Part shown: one piece after another, positions 1,485 to 44,400 of the stretch | How the letters are laid out: the number at the start of each line of letters is the position of its first letter | Position numbering within the stretch: position 1 is the stretch's first letter | Assembly: GCA_023132955.1 (NCBI GenBank) | Contig: JAGLXK010000407.1 | Location: 1 to 44,776, forward strand | Direction of reading: 5' to 3' | From: Candidatus Heimdallarchaeota archaeon | GTDB taxonomy: Archaea; Asgardarchaeota; Heimdallarchaeia; Heimdallarchaeales; Heimdallarchaeaceae | DNA: 44,776 nt | Made by a program: the position numbers and the translations under genes | The notes under the pieces: model-generated | Seen by the model: the letters and a program-made list of their open reading frames with translations, nothing else | The model's database searches: none | What the model was told of the DNA's origin: nothing

Positions 1485-1504
1485 AATTTAGGAATAGAAC
1501 TGTC

Positions 1505-2068
1505 ATGTCTGTTTACGGAACTGTCAAAATTGTACTTCTAGGAGATTATGCTACTGGAAAAACCACTTTAAAAAGGAGTTTTATGGGACTTCATCTTGAA
1601 GAAGCATATATGAGCACTCTTGGAGTGGATTTAGCCTCTCACAAACATATAGACGAGGATATAGAGATAATGTTTCAAATCTGGGATCTTGGTGGTCAGG
1701 AAGAATTTGCTAGACTTAGAGAGAAACAATATCTTGGTTCTGAAGGGGGCTTACTAGTTTTTGACAAGAGTCGCCCTGAAACGTTTGCTAATCTGGAGAA
1801 ATGGTTAAAAGAACTTAATTCATCTATCAAGGAAAAAATTCCAATATTAGTATTAGGTAACAAAGACGATTTGATGGAAGAAGCTCAAAATAACTTTTGG
1901 AACGAGCAAGCGAAGACTTTTGTAGATAATTTCAAAGATAAATATCCTCACATTGAATTAACTGATTTCTATTCAACTTGTGCTCTTGTAGGAACAAATG
2001 TTAATGAAGCTTTTATCGATTTGGGACGTGACATTATCAGAAGAAAAAGCGACAAGATGAAGATATAA
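1505..2068 (+). CDS. Eukaryote-like small GTPase (Ras/Arf superfamily)
   Basis: The 187-residue protein has the five G motifs of a Ras-superfamily GTPase: P-loop GDYATGKT at 13-20, switch I threonine near 38, WDLGGQE at 60-66, NKDD at 119-122 and STCAL near 157-161. The double glycine in DLGGQ is Arf/Sar-like, whereas Rab proteins have DTAGQ. The body otherwise resembles the many small GTPases of Asgard archaea. There is no C-terminal prenylation cysteine and no N-terminal myristoylation signal, so any membrane attachment must be through partners. The open frame extends upstream to 1043 antisense to purA, but homology begins at 1505 and a TATA box sits at the right distance. The CCDC47-like gene begins 62 bases downstream. 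The cellular role cannot be read from the sequence. Confidence 0.9.
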   Translation: MSVYGTVKIVLLGDYATGKTTLKRSFMGLHLEEAYMSTLGVDLASHKHIDEDIEIMFQIWDLGGQEEFARLREKQYLGSEGGLLVFDKSRPETFANLEKWLKELNSSIKEKIPILVLGNKDDLMEEAQNNFWNEQAKTFVDNFKDKYPHIELTDFYSTCALVGTNVNEAFIDLGRDIIRRKSDKMKI

Positions 2069-2130: not shown

Positions 2131-3051
2131 ATGACTAATTCAGATTTATTCGACTTTGGATCAATTCTAGTAATGCTTCTTCCCGTACTTATATTTATTG
2201 GATTATATCTTGGTTTTTATGTTTGGGGTAAATTTGCCAATAAGAAGAAGAAAGAGTTCTATATAGATGAAGTTCTTACAGCAATAGATCCGTATATTAT
2301 GAATTATTCTAGAAAAGACCCTAATGATCGTCAAATAGAAATTAGGTGCCAAATGGGTGAAGAGTATGCTGTAACGAGTACTTCTGCTTGGATTATTTTA
2401 TTACCAAGAACCTCTTTTCCAACCATGCTAGTAGATGGATTGTTCTTTAGAAATAAAGATTCATTCGGTTTAGCAGCGAATTTTCCAGATAAACCTAGAG
2501 TATTATTCGAAGTGATACCTTATAAGATGAAATCAGCTATTCGAAAGGATTTTGATTATCTTGTAGAAATTGACGATATAGCTTCTCCTGAACAAAAAGT
2601 TAATGACTCATTCTTGATAAAGTCCAATAGAGTAAGAGCCATTAATCAATTGATAAGGAGCAAAACTTTCCTGAAAGCTCTTGGAGAATATCCAAAGGAA
2701 ATTCAGTGGATTTCTGTTCGAACTGATGAACCTCATTTCGAGCTAAAATTCAACATGACTAAAAAACCTGCAGATCTCCTAGTACTCACAAAATTTGCTA
2801 TGACAGTTCTCAAGTATTTTGCTAAAGTTACTGCTCAAACAAAGGATTTACCTATTCCAACTGTTGTAAAGAAGGAAGTTAAGAAACTCTCTGACAAAGA
2901 GAAACAAAAGCAAGAGAAAGAGAAAGATAAACAAATGAAAGAACGAGAAAAACGAAGAGAGAGAGCTAGAACTGCAGAAGAAAAAAGAGCTAAAAAGAAA
3001 GCAAAAGAAGAAGAAAGAGCAGTTCGAAAAACAAGAAAAATTCGAAAATAG
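2131..3051 (+). CDS. Single-span membrane protein with basic coiled-coil tail, CCDC47 (DUF1682)-like
   Basis: The 306-residue protein has one hydrophobic helix at about 12-34, followed by a basic GKFANKKKK segment (tail inside by the positive-inside rule), an alpha/beta globular part to about 235, and a tail of some 60 residues made almost only of K, R, E and Q. This is the order seen in eukaryotic CCDC47, a subunit of the PAT complex in the ER multipass translocon: membrane helix, cytosolic DUF1682 domain, basic coiled coil that contacts the ribosome. Local resemblances include a (L)(K/T)FN segment, then a helix ending in a YF/YS-(A/I)K motif before the charged tail. The similarity was judged by eye from memory of the human protein. 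The alternative is an unrelated Asgard membrane protein with a charged tail. The gene follows the small GTPase and precedes a DegV gene. Confidence 0.5.
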   Translation: MTNSDLFDFGSILVMLLPVLIFIGLYLGFYVWGKFANKKKKEFYIDEVLTAIDPYIMNYSRKDPNDRQIEIRCQMGEEYAVTSTSAWIILLPRTSFPTMLVDGLFFRNKDSFGLAANFPDKPRVLFEVIPYKMKSAIRKDFDYLVEIDDIASPEQKVNDSFLIKSNRVRAINQLIRSKTFLKALGEYPKEIQWISVRTDEPHFELKFNMTKKPADLLVLTKFAMTVLKYFAKVTAQTKDLPIPTVVKKEVKKLSDKEKQKQEKEKDKQMKEREKRRERARTAEEKRAKKKAKEEERAVRKTRKIRK

Positions 3052-5663: not shown

Positions 5664-6233
5664 TTAGACAATGTCTCCATATTTGCGTGCTTTTTTGAAC
5701 TCTTTTTCTAATTCTTTCTCTAGATTTGCAGTTAGAAATCTACTGATATCTATGACTTCATTATATTCTGTAAAAGCAGATTCAAATGATTTTAATGAGG
5801 TTTCTAATAATTCAACATATGTTATATTTTGTTCTATGAAATTCATTGTCTTACTGATGTTATGAGCAATGGTTTTCAACAATTTATTCGTTTCTACATC
5901 CCTTTTGCATAAATCGAGCAATTTTTTGGGCGTTTTAATGGGAAAGTCTAAGCCTTCCATCTCAATCATTAGATCAACTCGTTCTGCACTGACTTGCTCC
6001 ATCTCATTGTAAAGATTACATAATGTTGTAAGGTTTGCAATTATTTTTTCCTTTTTTGTAACGATCTTGCCTTTTGAAGAAATGACCTCTTTAACATCTC
6101 TAAACACATCAGGGCTTAAGGAAATTATTTTCTGGGTTTTTTCATCCCAAACATTGTTTACATCCTTTAAAATGCCAATAAAAGAACCTGTTGTGTGTGC
6201 AAGTGTATCACTTTTTCTTAGATTTTTATTCAC
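5664..6233 (-). CDS. Unrecognised helical protein, 189 residues
   Basis: I do not recognise this family. The protein is predicted to be almost wholly helical and rich in K, E, L and I, without membrane segments, cysteine motifs or a signal peptide. Heptad-like stretches suggest a coiled-coil or helical-bundle protein in the cytosol. The start is a GTG at 6233, supported by a strong Shine-Dalgarno match, AGGTGAT at 6239-6245, seven bases upstream. The stop lies 23 to 62 bases before the nnr start, depending on which start nnr uses, and both genes run on the minus strand, so they probably form an operon; nothing in the sequence shows that it helps in nucleotide repair. Confidence 0.7.
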   Translation of the reverse strand: MNKNLRKSDTLAHTTGSFIGILKDVNNVWDEKTQKIISLSPDVFRDVKEVISSKGKIVTKKEKIIANLTTLCNLYNEMEQVSAERVDLMIEMEGLDFPIKTPKKLLDLCKRDVETNKLLKTIAHNISKTMNFIEQNITYVELLETSLKSFESAFTEYNEVIDISRFLTANLEKELEKEFKKARKYGDIV

Positions 6234-43511: not shown

Positions 43512-44288
43512 TTACCTTCTTTTCTTGGTTTTTCTTTTAATCTGCTTCTTACTTTTTTGAATAACGGTTCCTTTTTTATCCCTTTGTTTCTCCTTCCCTT
43601 TCTTAGCTTCTCGAGGTCTCTTAAAAACAAGATAATCAATTAAAACAAGAGCGCCTATTCCAAATACTATTGCTAATGAATAATACAAGATATTCAACCA
43701 GAGCTTTGCATCTAAAACTACAATATTCTCAGGTTTAATAGATGAAATGAAGAATCTCTGAGACTGTGCATTATATTTTTTTTCATCAATGCCGTAATAT
43801 TCAATAGTAGTTGGTTCTAAAGTAAAGTTTCCTTCAGAAAGAGGTTTGAAGTAATAGTAATAGTATATAGTTGCATTTGGTTCTACTATAACATACTTTT
43901 GGGTTGTTAAATTTAAACTAGAAATAGCCCAATCAGAAAAACTTGGATCAACTATTGTAAGATTATATGCAGTTTGATTACCAATGTTCTTAATAGTAAT
44001 ATTAACAAAAACCCATTCCTCGATATCTGGGTTGATTTCTGTATCGTTAACATCTTTAGCAAGATCAAGAATGGGCCTATCAAGGAAAGAATCATTGATT
44101 TGACTAAATGTTTGAAGAGTCTTGTCTATTGTTGTAGTCATATTGTTTTCCGAATTAATAGCTATTGCACTATTAATGGATGAGTGTGAAATAGTTAAGC
44201 CTAGAAATAGCATAATTGTAAGATATACTGTTGCGGGTCTAGAGATTCTTTTAATCATTGATTTCTTATTCCTTAATCTTCTAAACAT
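43512..44288 (-). CDS. TRAP-beta (SSR2)-like single-span membrane protein
   Basis: From the ATG at 44288 the 258-residue protein has a signal-type helix at about 19-38, an Ig-like domain at about 85-185, a membrane helix at about 197-222, and a very basic tail of 36 residues (KKSKKQIKRKTKKRR-like). The Ig-like part reads ITIKNIGNQTAYNLTIVDPS, then AISSLNL, IVEPNATIYYYYYFKPLSEG and FTLEPTTIEYYG. This follows, block by block, my recollection of eukaryotic TRAP beta ([55 protein letters not shown]). TRAP is the translocon-associated complex that assists secretion. The basic tail would face the cytosol. An ATG at 44258 is a possible start. It is 68 bases upstream of the Get3-like gene. A generic Ig-fold surface protein is the alternative. 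Confidence 0.55.
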   Translation of the reverse strand: MFRRLRNKKSMIKRISRPATVYLTIMLFLGLTISHSSINSAIAINSENNMTTTIDKTLQTFSQINDSFLDRPILDLAKDVNDTEINPDIEEWVFVNITIKNIGNQTAYNLTIVDPSFSDWAISSLNLTTQKYVIVEPNATIYYYYYFKPLSEGNFTLEPTTIEYYGIDEKKYNAQSQRFFISSIKPENIVVLDAKLWLNILYYSLAIVFGIGALVLIDYLVFKRPREAKKGKEKQRDKKGTVIQKSKKQIKRKTKKRR

Positions 44289-44400
44289 GCTTGAATCAGC
44301 CAATTTAAATATTTTGCTCTTCTGTATCTTTCTTTGTTCACATTCAGAAATTAATCTCTAATTATTCAAACCATTATTATTTGTTCATAAAAGTAGTAAA

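Follow-up and report, generated by a model that had tools for sequence, protein, structure and literature searches.

CCDC47 is a subunit of the PAT complex in the eukaryotic multipass translocon, and its Pfam family (PF07946 CCDC47) was formerly named DUF1682. The protein consists, in this order, of a flexible luminal domain, a membrane helix, a globular domain and a basic coiled coil (PMC7505659). In mammals the globular domain contacts eL6 and rRNA helix 25, and the coiled coil lies between Sec61 and helix 24, reaching the mouth of the tunnel (PMC7505659). Together with Sec61-beta, CCDC47 stops the nascent chain from opening Sec61, insertion being left to the insertase behind (PMC12572126, PMC13261788). 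The Chaetomium protein was docked in three parts (PMC12572126); the middle part, of 47 residues, is taken here to be the latch. A 2022 paper stated that the PAT components CCDC47 and Asterix are missing from prokaryotes. Our literature search, whose coverage excluded most subscription-journal papers and bioRxiv preprints, found no paper joining CCDC47 with Asgard archaea; the Asgard translocon papers found treat TRAP, OST and Sec61, and a paper on archaeal insertases makes no mention of CCDC47. Some relatives of the protein described here score above the Pfam cut-off, so that a few Asgard proteins probably already carry the CCDC47 label in public databases, without further remark.

The DNA analysed (the window, 44,776 nucleotides) belongs to a Candidatus Heimdallarchaeota assembly of 3.58 Mb that is 89% complete. 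Taxonomic families of Asgard genomes are designated by f-numbers; f1 is the window's own family and f1-f7 are included in its class.

Layout of the protein and homology to CCDC47

The preliminary description of the window had assigned to one of its genes (Table 1) a CCDC47-like product made of a membrane helix, an alpha/beta domain and a basic coiled-coil tail, and this layout was borne out by hydropathy, charges and an AlphaFold2 model. The open reading frame is intact. A single hydrophobic segment was found at residues 9-27 (best 19-residue Kyte-Doolittle mean 2.51; values beyond residue 40 were ≤1.31). Charges of +5/-1 at residues 34-42, right after the membrane helix, predict an N-out/C-in topology; the position of the N-terminus outside the cell and of the domain and tail in the cytosol is thus inferred, and rests on prediction only. 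Within the same region, a conserved G-x-x-x-N-x-K stretch (residues 33-39) aligns with mammalian CCDC47. The AlphaFold2 model, built with 38 family members, reached a mean pLDDT of 93.4 (93.0 without the tail) and displayed a single long helix (residues 4-55), the alpha/beta domain and a C-terminal helix, which is joined to the core by residues 237-254, without regular structure. The tail (residues 237-306, 70 residues) contains 31 K/R and 15 D/E, of which 25 and 13, respectively, fall in helix 255-305; this charged helix is kept in the examined members of f1.

Table 1. Coordinates of the CCDC47-like gene, of the parts of its product and of other genes of the window.
Feature	Position	Strand	Basis and remarks
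CCDC47-like protein gene	2131..3051	+	ATG to TAG, 306 aa; stop codon included in coordinates
Residues 1-8, short acidic N-terminal end	2131..2154	+	Charge count and model; location outside the cell is a topology inference
Membrane helix, about residues 9-29	2155..2217	+	Hydropathy, charges, model
Alpha/beta domain, residues 56-236, predicted cytosolic, CCDC47 fold	2296..2838	+	AlphaFold2 and structure matching; PF07946 match at residues 81-215
Basic charged C-terminal helix, coiled-coil-like, residues 255-305	2893..3045	+	Model, charge count
Ras/Rab-like small GTPase, directly upstream of the CCDC47-like gene	1493..2068	+	Pfam Ras 4e-33; start assumed, not proven
189-residue protein, probably helical	5664..6233	-	No Pfam match over cut-off
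TRAP-beta-like protein	43512..44303	-	PF05753 6.9e-11, 42.3 bits vs. cut-off 22.4

Matches of the full-length protein in phmmer searches against the PDB fell mostly on the charged tail, and CCDC47 was no longer found there by a profile that included tail columns; the main sequence tests were therefore run without the tail. The whole protein matched PF07946 only around the membrane helix (E = 0.05, 13.2 bits). Without the tail the match improved to E = 7e-4 (19.3 bits) and its best stretch, residues 81-215, was collinear with profile positions 77-211; whole or tail-less, the window protein itself stayed under the curated PF07946 cut-off of 27.7 bits. PF07946 was matched by 26 of the 37 tail-less family members tried (best E-value 1.1e-9), no other Pfam family was matched by more than one of them, and one member alone matched anything else. 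When the PF07946 model was run over 228 Asgard genomes, the cut-off was passed in seven, each time at the locus of the CCDC47-like family, with orthologues scoring up to 36.8 bits (33.7 and 33.0 in genomes G001 and G019, of the window's genus); it was passed in none of the 14 control genomes. A profile of the family retrieved mammalian CCDC47 from the PDB at E 0.7, a weak and non-significant match whose alignment starts at the membrane helix, with G-K-x-K-N in common at the cytosolic helix end.

The three best Foldseek matches in the PDB were 7tm3 chain 4 from rabbit (4.4e-10), 9i78 chain 4 from Chaetomium (2.5e-8) and 6w6l chain 7 from human (2.9e-6); 7tm3 and 6w6l chains are named CCDC47 in the PDB search, and 9i78 chain 4 was assigned to CCDC47 on the grounds of its rank and of PMC12572126. 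The tail-less model matched rabbit CCDC47 (7tm3 chain 4) with E 1.1e-10, TM 0.74 and rmsd 3.6 A. The core is thus confidently predicted to share the fold of the CCDC47 cytosolic domain. Together with the tail-less PF07946 match, this shows that the local similarity noticed beforehand is genuine and not an effect of the low-complexity tail. Absence of a DUF1682 match together with a different fold at residues 40-235 had been set in advance as refutation, and both went the opposite way. The PF07946 matches and the CCDC47 chains at the top of the fold search make homology to CCDC47 as good as certain. The CCDC47-like interpretation has three limits: the window protein lies under the Pfam cut-off, it has neither the luminal domain nor an obvious latch pair, and its long tail is special to f1.

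The next unrelated fold after the CCDC47 chains, weaker by about six orders of magnitude, was TtfA of mycobacteria (PDB 6t84; E 3.3e-4), which displayed TM 0.33-0.40 and 6% identity with the core; a relationship is unproven. Corynebacterium glutamicum was the sole control genome with a PF07946 match below the cut-off. These two likenesses possibly reflect a deeper family link.

Genomic partners, neighbourhood and proposed role

The Oxa1/TMCO1 insertase family (PF01956) was present in 56 of the 57 related genomes (1.5e-17 in the window's own genome), and the EMC6 family in 33 of them at E≤0.01, 16 being over the cut-off. Asterix (PF03669) gave no match over the cut-off in 224 Asgard genomes, although a partner of very divergent sequence would escape detection, and TMEM147 gave none in the Asgard genomes searched; both searches returned only matches below the cut-off, many of them with internal stop codons.

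Given that it shares the domain and the position of the membrane helix with CCDC47, ends in a basic cytosolic stretch and occurs alongside insertase and, in many genomes, EMC6 genes, the protein is taken, by inference, as a ribosome-facing subunit at the SecY-insertase site. We consider it probable that it is the archaeal counterpart of CCDC47, facing the ribosome beside SecY and the Oxa1/TMCO1-like insertase and steering the segments of multi-pass proteins. It would be anchored in the cell membrane, with the N-terminus facing outwards and the alpha/beta domain and the basic tail reaching into the cytosol; there it would contact the ribosome in the area of the tunnel exit, next to SecY (the archaeal Sec61) and the insertase, and guide emerging segments of multi-pass membrane proteins to the insertase side. 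Binding to ribosome and SecY, as well as steering, are inferred. Against a translocon role stand the lack of Asterix and TMEM147 matches over the cut-off, the lack of observed linkage to SecY or insertase genes, a latch that seems missing or reduced, the absence of the long tail in most relatives and the absence of functional data.

Gene neighbourhood varied among lineages. In f1 the order GTPase, CCDC47-like gene and two genes that are presumably DegV-like and NAD(P)HX-repair-like is shared by nearly all members, while nucleotidyltransferase and KaiC-like ATPase genes occur in f2-f4 and f6 and ubiquitin-system genes in f5. No SecY or insertase gene linked to the CCDC47-like gene was seen among the neighbourhoods compared. 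Neighbourhood was therefore rejected as proof of a translocon role.

A true CCDC47 homologue may also have had another job in archaea, for example as a general membrane-anchored scaffold or as a factor of other membrane machinery, the translocon role having arisen later, in eukaryotes. We regard this as unlikely, but it is the alternative that survives best: the lineage-specific neighbours just described are not translocon genes, Asterix and TMEM147 were not found, and there is the weak structural likeness to TtfA, a membrane-anchored transport factor (E 3e-4). However, a single N-out helix followed by a basic cytosolic C-terminus suits a ribosome-facing role, and Asgard genomes have other old translocon parts, namely TRAP, OST, Oxa1 and EMC6 (PMC11417166, PMC8675477).

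Several further observations concern the neighbouring genes. In four families (f2, f3, f4 and f6; loci L147-L155) the KaiC-like ATPase gene directly adjoins the CCDC47-like gene and is followed in most by a gene with a nucleotidyltransferase domain, on the same strand in most. The gene of the 189-residue protein is found close to the CCDC47-like gene at 24 of the 40 loci, from several families. In one f5 genus (L156, L158 and L159 in genomes G054, G040 and G053) the cluster comprises a ubiquitin-like protein, E1, E2, a JAB protease and Arf-like GTPases, along with a PCI/zinc protein whose similarity to the UFM1 ligase family stays below the cut-off (E 0.009, 16.1 vs. 23.2 bits). UFMylation in eukaryotes acts on ER-bound ribosomes (PMC10183829); by analogy, a link of this kind may be worth testing for the f5 cluster. 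The TRAP-beta-like protein, which had been put forward as a second translocon-type candidate making chance resemblance less likely, is genuine but lies 41 kb off and adds little alone. Its C-terminal tail is basic, somewhat like that of the CCDC47-like protein.

Distribution and descent of the family

The CCDC47-like gene is a real conserved gene. Of the 57 related genomes, 48 gave a hit in protein searches (E≤0.01); identity was 57-97% inside f1 and about 20-35% beyond. A census with the family profile yielded 51 positives among the 59 genomes of the window's class (20/23 in f1, 10/13 in f2-f4 and 21/23 in f5-f7) and 29 among the 165 genomes of the phylum outside this class; three of the 29 are marginal, all three in f19. 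The profile contains many of the sequences counted, and the counts are thus a census and not a test. Negative genomes of the window's class were represented by assemblies 63-87% complete. The family is therefore near-universal in the class and patchy in other Asgard groups; non-Asgard archaea were covered by the control genomes only, so that absence there is not established.

In a tree restricted to archaeal sequences, without eukaryotic rows and with the root untested, the taxonomic families stayed together, with two paralogous groups in both f5 and f26. A second, diverged CCDC47-like copy occurs in genomes of f5 and f26 (L172-L176, L183, L188 and L191) and forms its own branch in each family. 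Divergence across Asgard families is deep (16-25% identity). Tree and spread are consistent with vertical descent plus losses, one loss having probably occurred in f19.

Transfer of the gene from an early eukaryote into Asgard archaea, instead of shared descent, appears very improbable. Gene exchange between proto-eukaryotes and Heimdallarchaeia has been proposed (PMC12395588), but the gene is spread over many Asgard families at the low identities just given, and the tree, within the limits stated, keeps these families together. The resemblance could also be due to chance, the protein being membrane-anchored but unrelated and its charged tail of low complexity; the weak single-sequence searches (PF07946 at 0.05, phmmer matches mostly to the tail) could be ascribed to this. 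Such a reading can practically be discarded: it is already contradicted by the PF07946 match, which persists and grows without the tail and with family members, and by CCDC47 as best fold match, about six orders of magnitude ahead of the next unrelated fold.

With shared descent as the preferred reading, a near-universal CCDC47 homologue in a Heimdallarchaeia-type class puts the origin of CCDC47 in archaea and joins the TRAP and OST subunits already known in Asgard. It also provides a smaller natural version, in which the function of the core domain could be studied in the absence of the luminal domain, Asterix and an evident latch. If the protein works as in eukaryotes, part of the machine for multi-pass membrane proteins predates the endoplasmic reticulum. 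We propose only tentatively, as a possibility that may well prove wrong, that a forerunner of the multipass translocon (SecY, an insertase of Oxa1/EMC6 type and a CCDC47-like subunit facing the ribosome) was working in the cell membrane of Heimdallarchaeia-type archaea, and that it passed to eukaryotes before they had an endoplasmic reticulum, the luminal domain, latch, Asterix and BOS parts being later additions.

Comparison with known systems

The window protein has the same predicted cytosolic fold as CCDC47, a single preceding membrane helix, a basic helical C-terminus and the same predicted N-out/C-in topology, its parts following the order described in PMC7505659; identity amounts to 15-16%. 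The long luminal domain of CCDC47 is replaced by about 8 residues before the helix. Where CCDC47 has its two latch helices, about 18 residues (237-254) lie between core and tail helix, which suggests that the latch acting on Sec61 may be missing or reduced. Unlike CCDC47, the archaeal protein resides in the cell membrane, and its partner Asterix was not found.

The comparison is weakest for the tail. The long charged helix occurs in f1 only; f3 tails, of about 40 residues, are basic and probably unstructured, and other families have 6-28 residues. Either the coiled coil is early and was often lost, or it was gained independently in f1 and eukaryotes. As the coiled coil is confined to f1 and the other families have only short basic tails, the docking of the tail at the tunnel exit, as envisaged in the preliminary description, is the least secure element.

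TRAP-alpha/beta/gamma and OST subunits of Asgard archaea (PMC10307638, PMC11417166) are likewise translocon accessory proteins first known from eukaryotes; they differ from the CCDC47-like protein in complex and fold, and they have already been reported in Asgard. The archaeal Oxa1/YidC-like protein (PF01956), with its EMC6-like partner, is an ancient insertase and the presumed precursor of TMCO1, the insertase of the multipass translocon (PMC8675477); its fold is unrelated to that of the CCDC47-like protein, of which it is a likely partner and not a relative.
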